Positions 4,684 to 11,171 of a stretch of 64,000 bases of DNA are shown in pieces. Numbering within the stretch: the stretch's first letter is position 1; each line of letters begins with the position of its first letter. The notes under the pieces are model-generated. The model did no database searches. It worked only from the letters and a program-made list of their open reading frames with translations, and had not been told where the DNA came from. A program made the position numbers and the translations under genes. Where the stretch lies: assembly GCF_002288325.1 (NCBI RefSeq), contig NZ_CP016780.1, positions 124,001-188,000 of the forward strand. The letters are read 5' to 3'. Source of the stretch: Candidatus Planktophila lacus (lineage in GTDB: Bacteria; Actinomycetota; Actinomycetes; Nanopelagicales; Nanopelagicaceae).

Positions 4684-5199
4684 GTGAAGCGTTTAGCGGC
4701 AGTTATTGCAGCGCTGGGATTTACCGTTCTTCTAGCAGCGCCTGCGCTTGCTAACTCTCTTGTTGCCACATCACCAATCGCTGGTTCGACTCTCAAAGTA
4801 GAGCCAAGTGCAGTGACGATCACTGTTGAAATCACACCTATGGATATGGGCAATGAAGTAACTGTCACAGATCCATCCGGTCGTCGCGTAGATGATGGCA
4901 CCTTAACTGTCGCCGGAAACGATTTGATTGTTGGAATGAAACCAATTACTCAGTCAGGTGTTTATAAAGTCTCTTACAACATTATCTCCGAAATGGATCT
5001 GCCACTCGAAGGATCTTTCGTCTTTAACTTTTCAACTCCAACAATTTCCGTGCCTGAAGAAGTGGTTCCAACAACGCCTGCAAAGATAGAAGGCAGCGAC
5101 TTCGGAACCAACTTATTTGTAATCGGACTGCTGGTTGCTTCACTAGCGGTACTGATTGCACTTGCGCTGTATGCGCGAAAGATTTTTAACGAGCGATGA
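4684..5199 (+). CDS. CopC-domain protein, membrane-anchored, without histidines
   Basis: The 171-residue protein has a signal peptide (residues 1-23, ending APALA), a CopC-like beta domain (24-120), a Pro/Thr/Glu linker and a C-terminal helix (LFVIGLLVASLAVLIALALYA). CopC proteins carry copper in the periplasm through His1 of the mature protein and a His in a DGHP motif. Here the mature start is NSLV instead of AHA, the DGHP position reads EMDLPL, and the protein has no histidine at all. Methionines in TPMDMG and SEMD remain. The start is GTG. The stop overlaps the next gene as ATGA, so translation is probably coupled. Confidence 0.8.
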   Translation: MKRLAAVIAALGFTVLLAAPALANSLVATSPIAGSTLKVEPSAVTITVEITPMDMGNEVTVTDPSGRRVDDGTLTVAGNDLIVGMKPITQSGVYKVSYNIISEMDLPLEGSFVFNFSTPTISVPEEVVPTTPAKIEGSDFGTNLFVIGLLVASLAVLIALALYARKIFNER

Positions 5200-7049
5200 A
5201 TTTACTGGAGATAAGTAAATTCTTATCCCTAGCTGCGGGCATTACCACAATCGGTTTGCTCCTGGCCATCGCCTTCTTTTTAAATGATGTTGAGGGAAAG
5301 CTTGGGGAAACCGCCAAAGCCTTAAGAAATATAACGGCAATTGCGGCTCTGACTTGGGCGATAACAACCGGAATTTCGATAGTTGCAACTTTGGCGAATA
5401 TTCTCGGAACAGATTTATCGGAAGCTTTAGATCCAACGTCAATGCGTTCCTTTATCTCGCAGGTAACGCTCGGCAAATATATGTTTGCGCAACTCTGTTT
5501 GGCGCTACTAGTTGCATTAGTAGCGATTCGTATCAGAGGCGTTGCCGGTGCAAATGCACTGCTCTTGCTAAGTCTGGCAGCGATCATTGCACCAGTCTTT
5601 GAAAGCCACTCTGCATCTAGTGGTTCGCACGCGCTGGCCATCGGGTCTTTAGTAGTACACGTCATTGCAATTTCTCTTTGGGTTGGTGGTTTAGTAGCGA
5701 TCACCTTCTTAAGGGCGCAAGATCGTGCAATGGCGCTGCCACGCTTTAGCGCCCTAGCTTTATGGACAGCGATCGCGGTATCCGCTAGCGGAACTGCAAA
5801 TGCTTGGGCCAGACTTAATTTTCAAAGCGCCTGGAGTTCAGAGTATGCGCGTATGGTGTTGCTTAAAATCTTATTAACGGCAGCGCTTATCTTTTTTGGC
5901 TATTTGAACCGTCGCCAACTGAAAGGTTCACTTAAATTAAATGGAAAGCAATTAGGACGTTTAATTTCAGTTGAAGTTTTGATCATGGCTATAACTACCG
6001 TTGTTGGCTCCAAACTTTCAACTATGCAACCACCTTTGCGTGCCGAAAGCTCTGTACTTGATCCCGGCTTAGCAGTTGCTGGAATTGCAACGCCACCACC
6101 TCCAAACCTTTGGCGCTTAGTCTCTCTCTACGATCCTGATGCGTTGATGATTGGCGTTTTGGTAACTGCCGTCGCACTCTATATAAGAGGAGTAATTATT
6201 CTTACGCGGCGTGGTGATAAGTGGCCAGTAGGACGAACCGTTGCCTTTGCTCTTGGAATTAGCGCAATTGATTATGCGACAAGCGGTGGCTTAGGTGTTT
6301 ATGCCAAGTTCTCATTTGAGTATCACATGATTGCTCACATGCTTCTTGGAATGGTTGCACCAATCGGAATTGTTCTAGGAGCACCGATTACCTTGGCGCT
6401 GCGCACTTTGCCACAAGGTCGTACGAACCAAGAACGCGGAGTTCGTGGAACGCTAATTGCATTGCTCCATTCAAAACCTGCAGCAGTGTTTACCAACCCA
6501 GTATCTGCTCTGGCCCTCTTTGATGGCTCACTCTTTGTTCTATATATGACACCGCTCTTTGGAAATCTGATGCAGTCACATCTCGGTCACCTTGTCATGA
6601 GCGTTCACTTCTTACTTGCCGGAATTCTTTTCTTCCACGTCATTATCGGAATTGATCCCAATCCAAGAAAAGTTCCACACATCGTGCGCATAGTTATTCT
6701 CTTCGCAGCGATGAGCATCCACGCCTTCTTTGCGGTCGCACTCATTTCCACTTCGACTCTGCTTGATCAGGGTTACTTTGCTTCACTGCAAACACCCTGG
6801 AATTTGGATTTGCTTGCCGACCAGCATGCAGGTGGTTCAGTCGCATGGGCGATGGGCGAGATCCCAATCCTGCTTGCGCTGGTAGCCACGTTTATTCAAT
6901 GGATGCGCGATGACTCTCGCGAGACTAAGCGCATTGATCGAAATGAAGCGCGATTAGCGGCCATGGGTGAACCTGATGAACTTGCTCAATACAATGCATA
7001 CTTATCTAACCTTGCAGCACAAGACCGAGAAAGAAAAGGCAGAGGCTAA
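5196..7049 (+). CDS. CopD - CtaG (Caa3_CtaG) fusion, copper transport / cytochrome oxidase assembly membrane protein
   Basis: The 617-residue polytopic protein joins two families. The first half is CopD-like, with ESHSASSGSHALA followed by HVIAISLWVGGLVAI. The second half, from about residue 310, is a cytochrome c oxidase assembly domain of the CtaG type, with FEYHMIAHMLLGMVAPIG and LGHLVMSVHFLLAG carrying its conserved histidines. Fusion of these two is common in actinobacteria. It probably moves copper across the membrane toward the oxidase. It is coupled to the upstream CopC-like gene by a 4-base overlap. A SURF1 gene for the same oxidase lies at 45116. Confidence 0.9.
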   Translation: MNLLEISKFLSLAAGITTIGLLLAIAFFLNDVEGKLGETAKALRNITAIAALTWAITTGISIVATLANILGTDLSEALDPTSMRSFISQVTLGKYMFAQLCLALLVALVAIRIRGVAGANALLLLSLAAIIAPVFESHSASSGSHALAIGSLVVHVIAISLWVGGLVAITFLRAQDRAMALPRFSALALWTAIAVSASGTANAWARLNFQSAWSSEYARMVLLKILLTAALIFFGYLNRRQLKGSLKLNGKQLGRLISVEVLIMAITTVVGSKLSTMQPPLRAESSVLDPGLAVAGIATPPPPNLWRLVSLYDPDALMIGVLVTAVALYIRGVIILTRRGDKWPVGRTVAFALGISAIDYATSGGLGVYAKFSFEYHMIAHMLLGMVAPIGIVLGAPITLALRTLPQGRTNQERGVRGTLIALLHSKPAAVFTNPVSALALFDGSLFVLYMTPLFGNLMQSHLGHLVMSVHFLLAGILFFHVIIGIDPNPRKVPHIVRIVILFAAMSIHAFFAVALISTSTLLDQGYFASLQTPWNLDLLADQHAGGSVAWAMGEIPILLALVATFIQWMRDDSRETKRIDRNEARLAAMGEPDELAQYNAYLSNLAAQDRERKGRG

Positions 7050-7051
7050 CG

Positions 7052-8203
7052 ATGAGCGCGAACGATCTTTACGCACTTCCATCTGAGTACAACGATCTAC
7101 GTGAAAGCGTTCGTGCGCTTGCTGAACATGAGATTGCTCCACATGCTGCAGCTGTAGATGAAGACCATCGCTATCCGCAAGAAGCAGCAGATGCGTTACT
7201 TAAAGCCGGACTAAGCGCTGCACATGTTCCAACTGAATTTGGTGGAGAAGGCGCAGATGCTGTTGCCACAGTAATAATTATTGAAGAAGTTGCGCGAGTT
7301 TGCGGTTCATCTTCGCTAATTCCAGCGGTAAATAAACTTGGATCGTTGCCACTAATTCTGAGTGGAAGCAAAGCGCAGAAAGAAAAGTGGCTGCCACAAC
7401 TTGCAAAAGGTAAAGGATTTTCTTACTGCCTCTCTGAATCTGAAGCGGGCTCAGATGCATCTGCCCTGAAAACTAAAGCAGAGTTAAAAGATGGATCTTG
7501 GGTAATCAATGGAAGTAAGAAATGGATTTCTCACGCTGGAGTATCTGAGTTCTATACAGTTATTGCGCAGACAGATCCAAGTAAAGGATCTAAAGGAATA
7601 ACCGCCTTTATCGTTGAAAAATCTGATCCCGGAGTTTCCTTCGGAGCTCCAGAGAAGAAGATGGGTTTTCGCGGATCTCCAACTCGCGAAGTTTATTTCG
7701 ATAACGTAACAATCGGAGATGATCGCCGGATCAGCGAAGTCGGCGCAGGGTTTGCACTTGCGATGGATACTTTGGATCACACTCGCATCACCATCGCGGC
7801 ACAAGCTTTAGGTATTGCACAGGGTGCGTTAGATGTTGCGACCAAGTACTCACACGAGCGTAAACAATTTGGCAAAGAGATCTTTGATTTCCAAGGCGTT
7901 CAATTTATCTTGGCAGATATGGCGATGAATATTGAGGCTGCTCGTCAATTAACTTATGCAGCAGCAGCACGTAGCGAACGAGGCGATAAAGACCTGAAAT
8001 TTTTCTCTGCAGCAAGCAAAACTTTCGCAAGCGATGTCGCAATGAAGGTAACAACAGATGCAGTGCAGGTTCTGGGAGGATATGGCTATGTCTCTGACTA
8101 TCCAGTCGAACGTATGATGCGCGATGCCAAATTAACTCAGATTTACGAAGGCACCAATCAGATTCAACGAATTGTTATGGCGCGCAATCTACCTAGAGGT
8201 TAA
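7052..8203 (+). CDS. Acyl-CoA dehydrogenase
   Basis: The 383-residue FAD enzyme introduces an alpha-beta double bond into acyl-CoA. It shows the signature CLSESEAGSDASALKTKAE around residues 130-148, the FAD/substrate segment GVQFILADMAMNIEAARQL, and the C-terminal IYEGTNQIQRIVMARNLPRG, whose Glu is the catalytic base in short- and medium-chain members. Full length. The gene starts 2 bases after the CopD-CtaG stop. No beta-oxidation partner lies next to it, so the chain length or branched-chain substrate is open. Confidence 0.93.
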   Translation: MSANDLYALPSEYNDLRESVRALAEHEIAPHAAAVDEDHRYPQEAADALLKAGLSAAHVPTEFGGEGADAVATVIIIEEVARVCGSSSLIPAVNKLGSLPLILSGSKAQKEKWLPQLAKGKGFSYCLSESEAGSDASALKTKAELKDGSWVINGSKKWISHAGVSEFYTVIAQTDPSKGSKGITAFIVEKSDPGVSFGAPEKKMGFRGSPTREVYFDNVTIGDDRRISEVGAGFALAMDTLDHTRITIAAQALGIAQGALDVATKYSHERKQFGKEIFDFQGVQFILADMAMNIEAARQLTYAAAARSERGDKDLKFFSAASKTFASDVAMKVTTDAVQVLGGYGYVSDYPVERMMRDAKLTQIYEGTNQIQRIVMARNLPRG

Positions 8204-8209
8204 TTGAAG

Positions 8210-8767
8210 CTAAGAATTGAATCTAAGAATTAAATCTGGAGTTGCTGCAGCGTTTAGCGGCACATCAAATTCTTCACGAGGTAGATCAACGCTAGAGATC
8301 TCATCTGGATGGATCAATCCGATACTCCATGCAGAAAGTTTTGGAAGTGCGCGATCGTAGAAGCCCCCACCTTGCCCCAAGCGATATCCAGATCTATCAA
8401 TTCGTAGAGCCGGTACAACAATTAGATTGATAAGTGAAAGATCTGTAAGTGCGGCTCCAGTTGGTTCGAGAAGTTGTTTTGATAACTTGCTTGGCGCAAG
8501 TTGATCTCTTGATCCGTTCCAAAGTACCCATTCGAGATCGATGCCATTTACTCGCGGCAGATAAAGATCTTTGCCACTTTTCAAAAGCGCCTGATTTAGC
8601 TCTTTCGTATTTGGCTCATCTCCATAAGAGATATAACTAGCGATAGCGCTTGCCTTAGAAAATTCTAAAGATGTAGCAAGGTATGAAAAAGAGTGATCTA
8701 GATATCTTTCGCGGCGTTCAAAACGATAGCGAGTGCGAAGTTCAGACTTCTCGCTTGCTGCACTCAT
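8210..8767 (-). CDS. fthC: 5-formyltetrahydrofolate cyclo-ligase
   Basis: The 185-residue enzyme converts 5-formyl-THF to 5,10-methenyl-THF using ATP. The C-terminal signature SGYRLGQGGGFYDRALPKL includes the phosphate-binding Gly-rich loop and the FYDR motif. The N-terminal RTRYRFERRERYLD is the usual basic start. It converges on the acyl-CoA dehydrogenase and diverges from glp. This position beside glp-rimJ-glpR is widely kept in actinobacteria, where galU often lies between; galU is absent here. Confidence 0.93.
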   Translation of the reverse strand: MSAASEKSELRTRYRFERRERYLDHSFSYLATSLEFSKASAIASYISYGDEPNTKELNQALLKSGKDLYLPRVNGIDLEWVLWNGSRDQLAPSKLSKQLLEPTGAALTDLSLINLIVVPALRIDRSGYRLGQGGGFYDRALPKLSAWSIGLIHPDEISSVDLPREEFDVPLNAAATPDLILRFNS

Positions 8768-8812
8768 CTAAATCCCCAATTATCTACTGCACTAGAAGTA
8801 TTGTTTCCGATT

Positions 8813-9739
8813 ATGTCAGACCGCACTCGTGTAGATGAGTTCCTGTCCTCTCTATTAGCGATCTGTCGACCACTCGAAGCATTTGAGATGTCCCTGCTAG
8901 ATGCGCATGGCGCAACTCTTGCCGAGGATATTTATGCCGGAGAACGTCTTGTCCTCAAGTCCGGTTCCAGAATTCGCTCGACACAGATCGGACTAGCGGC
9001 ATCTATTGGTCGCGATCATTTACCAACACGTCCACATCCCCGTGTTGTTGTGCTTTCGGCAGGCCCAGATTTAGTTGAACCAGGTAAAGAGTTAAAGGCT
9101 GGCGAAGAGTACGAGACTAATTCGTGGTTGTTAACTACTGCTGTGCGTGAAGTTGGAGCAGTTGCATATCGCGTCCACACAATTCCTGACGACGAAGCCC
9201 AACTGCAGGCGGTTATTGAAGATCAATTGGTTCGCGCTGATTTGATTATTATCAGTGGAGAACGCCACGATGATTCATTTGATCTAATTACTCGCACACT
9301 TTCGGCAATGGGTGAGATAACAACCGTGGATATCGCTATCGAATCTAGCGGCCGCCATAACTTTGGTGTGATTGGCCCAGATAAAACTCCGGTTGTTACA
9401 TTGCCAGGTGATCCAGTCGCTGCCTACATCTCATTCGAACTTTTCATACGCCCGATGATTCGCACAATGCTTGGTGCGGCAACAATTCATCGCCCATCAA
9501 TTAAGGCAAAGCTTGAGAAAGCAATTACCTCATCTGGCGGATATCGCTCCTACATCCGAGCCGTCTTATCTGAAGATGGAAAATCGGTTCTCCCATTGTT
9601 ATCTCAAGGTTCAAGTACTCAGGATGAACAAGCCACGCTCTCTGATGCCAATGCATTTATTGCAGTTCCAGAAGGCGATTTAAATATCGCCGCAGGCAGT
9701 GATGTCACTGTTGTCGTGCTCGAGCGCCGTTATATATAA
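8813..9739 (+). CDS. glp: Glp-like MoeA/gephyrin homologue lacking domain II (probable cell-division protein)
   Basis: About 308 residues against roughly 400 for MoeA. The N terminus matches MoeA domain I (VDEFLSSLLAICRPLE, LAEDIYAG). It then jumps straight to LVLKSGSRIRSTQIGLAASIG, so the segment with the DNSAMDGYA motif and domain II is gone. In domain III (PRVVVLSAGPDLVEPG) the usual GVSVGDYD is GERHDDSF and the KPG region is ESSGRHNFG; TLPGDPVA replaces LPGNPVS. Molybdenum insertion is therefore unlikely. In corynebacteria the homologue Glp binds FtsZ and the membrane protein GlpR, and glpR lies two genes downstream here. ATG 8813 is preferred; TTG 8801 is in frame. Confidence 0.7.
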   Translation: MSDRTRVDEFLSSLLAICRPLEAFEMSLLDAHGATLAEDIYAGERLVLKSGSRIRSTQIGLAASIGRDHLPTRPHPRVVVLSAGPDLVEPGKELKAGEEYETNSWLLTTAVREVGAVAYRVHTIPDDEAQLQAVIEDQLVRADLIIISGERHDDSFDLITRTLSAMGEITTVDIAIESSGRHNFGVIGPDKTPVVTLPGDPVAAYISFELFIRPMIRTMLGAATIHRPSIKAKLEKAITSSGGYRSYIRAVLSEDGKSVLPLLSQGSSTQDEQATLSDANAFIAVPEGDLNIAAGSDVTVVVLERRYI

Positions 9740-9759: not shown

Positions 9760-10344
9760 ATGTCTGAGCACTGGCCGATTTTCTTAACTCAGGGCGAGTT
9801 GCAATTACGCCCGCTGCGAATCCGCGATCGTCGTCGTTGGCTACTAGTCCGCGCCGAAAATAAAGATTGGCTCTCTGAATGGGAGGCAACGCTTCCAAAA
9901 GTTCCGGGAGAGAAGAACTCCAGCCAACTACCTTCATTTAGCGAGATGGTCAGATGGCATCGCCGTGAAGGGCGAAACGGACGCTCTTATTCACTAGCTA
10001 TTTGGCAGATTAACCAGCAAGGGCGCAACCTAATCGGGCAGATAACTATGGGCGGAGTTTCATACGGTGCGATGCGCGGGGCGCATATCGGCTACTGGAT
10101 CGATCGCGCATATGCCAACCGTGGATTTACAACACAAGCGGTAAATATGTTGACCCGCTTTGGCTTTGAAGAACTGGCCTTGCATCGAATCGAAATAAAT
10201 ATTCGCCCCGAAAATGCACCTTCGATAAAGGTCGCCGAGAAAGCTGGCTATATTTTTGAAGGTTTACGACCTAGGTATTTACATATCGATGGAAAATGGC
10301 GTGACCATCACTGTTATGTGAAAGAAAATTCCCAGGTCATTTAA
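9760..10344 (+). CDS. GNAT N-acetyltransferase, RimJ/RimL type
   Basis: The 194-residue protein has the GNAT fold. Its features are IGYWIDRAYANRGFTTQAVN, the pyrophosphate-binding strand-helix, and the C-terminal HRIEINIRPENAPSIKVAEK with AGYIFEG typical of RimJ/RimL. Family members acetylate alpha-amino groups of ribosomal or other proteins using acetyl-CoA. It sits between glp and glpR, as in many actinobacteria, but a link to cell division is only positional. The target protein is unknown. Confidence 0.88.
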   Translation: MSEHWPIFLTQGELQLRPLRIRDRRRWLLVRAENKDWLSEWEATLPKVPGEKNSSQLPSFSEMVRWHRREGRNGRSYSLAIWQINQQGRNLIGQITMGGVSYGAMRGAHIGYWIDRAYANRGFTTQAVNMLTRFGFEELALHRIEINIRPENAPSIKVAEKAGYIFEGLRPRYLHIDGKWRDHHCYVKENSQVI

Positions 10345-10394: not shown

Positions 10395-11171
10395 ATGGCT
10401 TCTGGAATTATTTATCTTTCGATTATCGGCATGTGGGTGGCTTACTTCCTCCCACGCTGGGTTCACGATCGAAACGAGTTCTCTGGAAAAAATGTAGAGA
10501 GATATAAAAGCGCACTTCGCATAGTTGCAGAAAATTCTCCGGGTGGAAGTTCTGGAACCGGGGTAATTCATACCGACCTAGATCGTGAAGCAAAAATTGC
10601 TCAACAACTTATGCGCCGCAGAATTATCTTCTCAATAATTATTATCGCTTTCGTAATGACGACAGTAGGTGCGATTATGCAAACTCTTGCAATTTCATTT
10701 ATCGGAGTACCAGTAGTTGGATTGGTTCTCTACTTGGTACATGTTCGCCACCAAACAACAACCGACCGAGCGCGTCGTCGCCGCGTTACTCAGATTCATC
10801 GCACAACAGTTGGTGTCTCATCAACAAACTTGGCAGAGGTTGTCGCACCGAAGCCTTCGACTGAACATTGGATTCCACTTTCCGAACGTGAACTAACTGG
10901 TGTAACGCTTTTGCCTAAGGGAACAGCAGCCGCTCGTGGAGAATGGCAACCAAACTCTGTGCCGGTTCCAACTTATGTAAATGCTCCAAAGGCGATTACT
11001 CCAAAGCGGGTTATTGATCTAACGACACCTGGTCAGTGGAGTGAAGAACAAGAACGCCTAGAACGCGAAGCCCTTGCCGCGGCTGCGCCATCGCGCGATG
11101 AAATCTTTGATCAACAACTTGCAGATGAAGCTGTAGAGCGCATGAAGCGCAACCGCGCTGCCAACGAATAG
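10395..11171 (+). CDS. glpR: Divisome membrane protein GlpR/SepX
   Basis: The 258-residue protein begins with a membrane helix containing the hallmark GMWVAYFLPRWVHDR. A basic stretch follows, then two close helices (residues 77-115, FSIIIIAFVMTTVGAIMQ and SFIGVPVVGLVLYLV), and a long polar C-terminal region with an acidic-basic tail. This is the plan of SepX of Streptomyces and GlpR of Corynebacterium, which act at the division site; GlpR binds the gephyrin-like Glp. The neighbouring glp and rimJ give the expected order glp-rimJ-glpR. Identification rests on the N-terminal motif, topology and synteny. Confidence 0.8.
   Translation: MASGIIYLSIIGMWVAYFLPRWVHDRNEFSGKNVERYKSALRIVAENSPGGSSGTGVIHTDLDREAKIAQQLMRRRIIFSIIIIAFVMTTVGAIMQTLAISFIGVPVVGLVLYLVHVRHQTTTDRARRRRVTQIHRTTVGVSSTNLAEVVAPKPSTEHWIPLSERELTGVTLLPKGTAAARGEWQPNSVPVPTYVNAPKAITPKRVIDLTTPGQWSEEQERLEREALAAAAPSRDEIFDQQLADEAVERMKRNRAANE

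Follow-up and report, generated by a model that had tools for sequence, protein, structure and literature searches.

In published work, Glp is a four-domain protein and a bacterial parallel to gephyrin, i.e. an enzyme turned scaffold at the junction of cytoskeleton and membrane (PMC10522489). In C. glutamicum, domain II of Glp comprises residues 46–145, and binding of the FtsZ tail as well as of GlpR depends on the domain IV hairpin, which lies at the dimer centre far from the molybdenum site (PMC10522489). Removal of the domain IV loop abolished the binding of FtsZ and of GlpR, and deletion of IDR2 of GlpR, which corresponds to the tail region considered below, partly mimics the loss of Glp (PMC10522489). 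Glp, GlpR and their divisome role are already known; what is new here is a Glp without domain II, repeated in three other families, where moaC-mog left the glp operon. In the Glp literature searched by word (open-licence main texts), no mention was found of a Glp lacking domain II, of its recurrence, of a tie to moaC-mog or of the order studied here.

The protein is encoded in a stretch of 64,000 nucleotides of the Candidatus Planktophila lacus genome (NZ_CP016780.1, positions 124,001 to 188,000), hereafter called the window (Table 1). We consider it probable that it represents the Glp orthologue of the acI (Candidatus Planktophila) lineage and has been pared down to a divisome scaffold without enzymatic function.

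A Glp homologue without domain II

The locus reads 5-FCL (on the opposite strand), glp, rimJ and glpR, and the order glp-rimJ-glpR recurs in relatives, which include Candidatus Planktophila and further freshwater actinobacteria; glpR was thus correctly placed two genes downstream of glp by the original prediction, with rimJ in between. That prediction, made from the DNA alone, described the product as a MoeA/gephyrin homologue stripped of domain II, and the open reading frame, the partial Pfam and NCBIfam matches and the alignment agree with this. Pfam assigns MoCF_biosynth to residues 91–217 and MoeA_C to residues 231–303, while MoeA_N, which covers domains I and II, is matched over only the first 42 of its 160 model positions, under the Pfam cut-off. 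The NCBIfam model Glp_gephyrin (NF045515) is matched at positions 138–403 of 403, with 275 bits against a cut-off of 475. The best PDB match, by sequence as well as by Foldseek, is C. glutamicum Glp (8bve/8bvf), followed by the MoeA family, and the alignment with 8bve begins at residue 147 of the latter.

In an alignment of approximately 100 Glp and MoeA proteins, short Glps lack approximately residues 45–143 of the full-length Glp of genome G034. Judged by this alignment, the missing stretch (about 100 residues, including DNSAMDGYA, as had been proposed) corresponds to a cleanly removed domain II, with domains I, III and IV remaining. Beyond the junction comes ERLVLKSGSRIRSTQIG, which the alignment places in the second half of domain I, where full-length relatives read GDLILTAGTQL; the earlier labelling of LVLKSGSRI as domain IV-like was therefore mistaken. 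Altered domain III motifs had also been proposed and are indeed present: SGERHDDSFD stands where GGVSxGxYD is expected and AGPDL where TGDEL is expected, and DNSAMDG is absent, such that the catalytic set of MoeA (domain II, DNSAMDG, TGxEL, GGVSxGxYD and PGKP) is not carried by the window Glp. Hinge 2 (RPHPRV) is retained; hinge 1 (CRPLEAFEMS) is short of Pro residues, the corresponding sequence in many relatives being PLxPFDMP, and the two Pro-rich hinge regions between domains I and III were scored as present. The window protein is, on its sequence, a domain-II-less variant of Glp, which fails the four-domain architecture of MoeA and the NF045515 cut-off and is hence no typical member.

The AF2 monomer of the window Glp (pLDDT 85, pTM 0.84) superposes nearly all of its residues on MoeA, gephyrin, Cnx1E and Glp, domain II being simply missing. 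It is nearer to closed MoeA (rmsd 2.2–2.6) than to open Glp (3.5), and an open, Glp-like hinge is therefore unsupported; the closed fit of this monomeric model would say little of the dimer.

Table 1. Features of the glp locus in the window, and the operon of genome G034
Feature	Position	Strand	Basis or remark
glp, domain-II-less Glp, 308 aa	8813..9739	+	open ORF, Pfam, NCBIfam, PDB match, AF2 model
Glp domain III N-terminal helix, residues 1-19	8813..8869	+	alignment to 8bve/8bvf domain limits; AF2 helix 7-16
Glp domain I first half, residues 20-43, ends ...LAEDIYAG	8870..8941	+	alignment
Junction ...DIYAG|ERLVL..., point where domain II (~100 residues) is absent	8939..8944	+	alignment
Glp domain I second half, residues 44-73, ERLVLKSGSRIRSTQIGLAASIGRDHLPTR	8942..9031	+	alignment
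Glp domain III, MoCF fold, residues 74-222, starts with Pro-rich hinge 2 PHPRVVV	9032..9478	+	Pfam, conservation alignment
Glp domain IV, residues 223-308, MoeA_C	9479..9736	+	Pfam, AF2
Glp domain IV hairpin, residues 245-261, shortened counterpart of the C. glutamicum FtsZ/GlpR-binding loop	9545..9595	+	AF2, alignment
rimJ-like GNAT acetyltransferase, between glp and glpR	9760..10344	+	Pfam, NCBIfam, synteny
glpR/sepX-like protein, 258 aa, 3 predicted TM segments	10395..11171	+	NCBIfam, TM prediction
GlpR C-terminal tail short motif, WQPNSVPVPTYVNAPKAITPKRVIDLTTPGQW, candidate Glp-binding peptide (inferred)	10944..11039	+	motif comparison
5-formyltetrahydrofolate cyclo-ligase (5-FCL), divergent conserved neighbour of glp	8210..8767	-	Pfam, synteny
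Ancestral-looking operon galU-glp(full)-moaC-mog-rimJ-glpR	L075 (G034) 5009-9435		candidate bifunctional Glp, glp being the sole MoeA found

Molybdenum cofactor genes in the window genome and the order

The window genome (1.38 Mb, one contig, 99.97% complete) was searched for MoeA_N, MoCF, MoaC and, as Mo-enzyme families, MoCoBD_1 and PF00384. Its one MoCF domain is that of the window Glp itself, and no match to MoeA_N, to MoaC or to MoCoBD_1 (the Mo domain of xanthine/CO-dehydrogenase type) was obtained anywhere in the genome. The single PF00384 match (1229 bits) was rejected as a molybdoenzyme, the protein being NuoG. Since no other MoeA-family protein and no MoaC were found, and NuoG is the sole match to the two Mo-enzyme families searched, this gene content makes it very unlikely that the window Glp acts as a Mo-insertase; a surviving insertase was set aside on the absence of the searched markers together with the loss or alteration of the catalytic motifs. 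The proposal that the enzyme parts have been dropped is well supported by this absence, and the use of molybdopterin enzymes by a genome with no other moeA, which would have spoken against that proposal, is not what was found with the families searched.

A metabolic protein, in which the MoCF domain III still binds pterin, nucleotide or molybdate for another reaction or a sensing role, would be in keeping with the retained MoCF fold and with the conservation of the LPGDP and SGExxDxSFDLI segments of domain III in most family members. We regard such a role as improbable, however: in domains II and III the catalytic residues have been lost or changed, the window genome lacks the searched markers, and the gene remains linked to glpR and not to genes of metabolism.

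Among genomes of the order that possess MoaC and no full-length Glp, 56 of 57 have a separate full MoeA, as do three of the 134 MoaC-negative genomes. One short-Glp genome (G006) carries its separate MoeA in an apparent Moco island (L078, G006:C2:180000-195000). This island reads fdhF-fdhD-modA-modB and moaA-moaE-mog-moaC-moeA-mobA, the names being taken from translations and supported by NCBIfam for MoeA only; its MoeA has approximately 26% identity to Glp, carries TSSMDGWA and may be of separate origin. A genome of 3.5 Mb from family f38 (G442; loci L128 and L139) combines a short Glp at the glp locus with a separate MoeA linked to moaC-mog; given the size of this genome, the loss of domain II is more than a matter of genome reduction.

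Conservation of the short form across the order

The Glp model is matched in 196 of the 201 genomes of the window's order (Planktophila/acI), and only four of these, all from genera g8 and g15, reach the full-length cut-off. The other listed matches start at model position 137–145, and a fifth genome, from g8, holds a fragment that contains domain II. An assembly error, which the original prediction had allowed for, does not account for a gap common to nearly the whole order: the identical junction occurs in independently assembled genomes, including single-contig ones and the complete genome of Ca. Planktophila versatilis MMS-IA-79 (L257), which rules out an assembly or frameshift artefact as the cause of the missing domain and leaves it next to no probability.

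Between Planktophila species, dN/dS of glp is 0.01–0.03 (approximately 0.02), and the gene is under purifying selection. Within the short Glps, domain I is the most conserved (0.81–0.84 versus 0.71 in size-matched samples of full-length Glp) and domain IV the least (0.56 versus 0.66), domains III and IV both being less conserved than in full-length Glp. This lower conservation of domains III and IV, the reduced genome and the absence of the searched Moco markers would be expected of a decaying pseudogene or MoeA vestige in a streamlined genome, heading for loss. The gene nevertheless has an intact reading frame in almost every genome of the order, with dN/dS of about 0.02, which is why a pseudogene was set aside; in addition, domain I conservation exceeds that of full-length Glp and GlpR is found in 192 of the 201 genomes, and we consider decay highly improbable.

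Full-length Glp in sister genera and repeated loss in the class

In g8, the locus consists of 5-FCL (opposite strand), galU, full-length glp, moaC, mog, rimJ and glpR, and that of g15 reads galU, glp and moaC up to the contig end. The Glp of both genera has intact catalytic motifs (DNSAMDG, TGDEL, GGVSxGxYD and LPGNP), and no second MoeA_N was found in these genomes, which hold Mo domains of the xanthine/CO-dehydrogenase type and, in two cases, further PF00384 proteins. As a full-length Glp is the sole MoeA detected alongside molybdoenzymes, this gene content indicates that it probably doubles as the MoeA of g8 and g15.

A search with the junction region over 395 genomes of the class yielded contiguous matches outside the order in f39/g93, f38/g123 and f5/g71. 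Reading of these loci placed the short Glp between galU and rimJ-glpR in all three, and neither moaC nor mog was detected there. Full-length but motif-degraded Glps occupy the same locus in f39/g94 and f5/g20, and other f38 genera have a full-length Glp adjoining moaC. In genera g5 and g13 of f1, moaC-mog and domain II are gone and galU is retained, which is an intermediate state. Of the class loci that were read, none of the 58 in which moaC adjoins glp lacks domain II, versus 21 of the 31 in which it does not, a comparison of loci that were picked as best matches to the short form, hence non-randomly, and that are not independent where related. A full set of motifs is carried by 54 of the 58 full-length Glps with moaC versus two of the ten without. 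Fisher values for the association of moaC with domain II ignore relatedness and are descriptive; for the correlated loss of moaC and motifs only three independent pairs fall on starred branches, too few for significance, and the correlation thus rests on few independent events.

In a gene tree built without the domain II columns, the domain-II-less clade of the window's family (100*) groups with the Glp of g8 and g15 (93) and lies well apart from the MoeAs of the islands (100*); as four further MoeA rows are placed within the Glps, the border of the Glp clade is not sharp in this tree. The domain II trait needs four changes on the best tree. A single origin of the loss was rejected, as the constraint of all short forms to one clade gave a p-AU of 0.0045; holding the short forms of f1 and f39 together was not rejected (p-AU 0.198), so that, taken by itself, the gene tree requires fewer than four losses. 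Since each of the four short-Glp families has members with full-length Glp, and since junction lengths differ, four losses are the simplest reading, with two as the cautious minimum; several groups appear to have lost domain II separately. The suggestion that the protein is a minimal form showing which parts division needs is strengthened by the absence of domain II in three other families.

The pattern of operon-borne moaC-mog and domain II is in keeping with a bifunctional ancestor that discarded domain II after its enzymatic task had ended. An ancestral operon galU-glp-moaC-mog-rimJ-glpR would have encoded a full-length MoeA-like protein with probably two jobs, namely molybdenum insertion and the binding of FtsZ and the membrane receptor GlpR. 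Its Mo active site would have used domain II of one subunit, and FtsZ and GlpR would have used domain IV and the dimer centre. Once moaC and mog had gone from the operon, the enzyme would no longer have been under selection, and domain II, which is inserted into domain I at a distance from the FtsZ/GlpR site, could be deleted at its boundaries, which should spare the face formed by the domain IV hairpin and the dimer centre. The remainder (domain I, the Pro-rich hinges, domain III and domain IV) would be expected to dimerise and to bridge the FtsZ tail and GlpR. More broadly, Glp may have begun as, and in many actinobacteria may remain, a bifunctional Mo insertase and scaffold in one operon with moaC/mog, whose enzyme half decayed each time moaC-mog left the operon, domain II being deleted in at least two and probably four lineages, and whose minimal form would present domain I as the main surface, docking the GlpR motif W-x-P-x3-P-x-P-[TS]-Y; this wider scheme is tentative, and we would put it slightly below an even chance.

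Link to the divisome

The preferred reading of the window Glp as a non-enzymatic scaffold builds on the deletion, its lineage-wide conservation under purifying selection and its appearance in several lineages, together with the predicted fold, the absence of the searched Moco markers and synteny. We infer its divisome role, and with it dimerisation, binding of FtsZ and GlpR and action at the septum, from orthology, the glp-rimJ-glpR linkage, the prevalence of GlpR and the canonical FtsZ tail. In the domain-II-less loci of all four families glpR lies downstream of glp, and the FtsZ of the window genome ends in EDEIDVPDFMK, in which the V-P-x-F pattern is kept. SepF is also present in this genome.

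The domain IV hairpin is present in the AF2 model, albeit shorter than that of C. glutamicum. The residues through which C. glutamicum Glp contacts FtsZ (L343, M361 and Y369) were sought in the short Glps and are not conserved, M361 and Y369 not being kept in the window Glp; nor is the Met of the FtsZ loop a general feature of the full-length Glps in other families. As the pocket residues have changed, and as domain IV is the least and domain I the most conserved, binding may use another surface. The window GlpR, with its predicted membrane segments and two apparently disordered parts, has SepX_GlpR_2 as its best NCBIfam match. Its tail peptide, WQPNSVPVPTYVNAPKA, belongs to a motif (W-x-P-x3-P-x-P-[TS]-Y...IDLT-x-PG-x-W) that is found widely across the class, all four short-Glp families among them, and that putatively binds Glp. 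The VP-x-P-TYV core of this motif loosely resembles VP-x-F-M of the FtsZ tail.

These observations bear on a scaffold for GlpR only, in which domain I, exposed without domain II, would dock the GlpR tail motif and SepF would handle FtsZ. The shift of conservation to domain I, the shortened hairpin with its changed pocket, the conserved tail motif in all four families and the presence of SepF are what it would predict. The retained V-P-x-F pattern of FtsZ and the loss of both FtsZ and GlpR binding upon removal of the C. glutamicum loop (PMC10522489) argue against it, and we rate it as rather unlikely, though the strongest of the alternatives to a scaffold that joins FtsZ and GlpR.

No DivIVA/Wag31 (PF05103) was found in 108 well-assembled genomes of the order, and a weak match occurred in one incomplete genome. 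In actinobacteria, the usual place of divIVA is the site after sepF-yggT; in the dcw cluster of the window genome (L303, G000:C1:545000-563000), sepF-yggT is directly followed by ileS in the opposite orientation. It is accordingly unlikely that the corynebacterial link to polar growth applies, and the conservation of Glp and GlpR with no DivIVA detected suggests that this link is not their core function.

With 275 of 475 bits for Glp and 99 of 150 bits for GlpR, the two proteins remain under their NCBIfam cut-offs, and automatic annotation would probably miss both as divisome proteins.

Comparison with known systems

The repeated deletion of an exact domain with glpR kept indicates that domain II is dispensable for whatever holds glp together with glpR, and the natural short Glps constitute ready-made minimal proteins. 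The full-length Glp of g8 and g15 resembles the window Glp in locus and clade, yet differs in having kept domain II and its motifs, in an operon with galU and moaC (and mog in g8) and in its co-occurrence with molybdoenzymes. With an intact-motif Glp as the sole MoeA found in a Mo-using cell, these genera make the question of moonlighting versus repurposing testable, and their gene content challenges the generalisation that bacteria with Glp carry at least two copies. If the bifunctional-ancestor reading is true, the published view of a repurposed extra copy without catalysis would cover the derived lineages only.

Compared with MoeA, the gephyrin E-domain and Cnx1E, the window Glp has the predicted fold of domains I, III and IV in common (Z approximately 30), but lacks domain II, DNSAMDG, the TGDEL glutamate and GGVS, and the searched Moco markers are absent from its genome. 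The downstream protein is similar to GlpR/SepX (PMC10522489, PMC8748795) in its three predicted TM segments, two apparently disordered parts and SepX_GlpR_2 match, while its first disordered part has approximately 50 residues instead of approximately 190 and its score is under the curated cut-off. A further close system is C. glutamicum Glp (Cgl0883; 8bve, 8bvf; PMC10522489), which, as the original prediction had stated, retains the full MoeA fold. It is the top match by sequence and by Foldseek, and it has in common with the window protein the locus order glp-x-glpR, degraded catalytic motifs and the Pro-rich hinge 2, to which most relatives add hinge 1; in contrast to its four domains, the window Glp is devoid of domain II, has a shortened hairpin in domain IV and differs in its pocket residues, in a host without detected DivIVA/Wag31.
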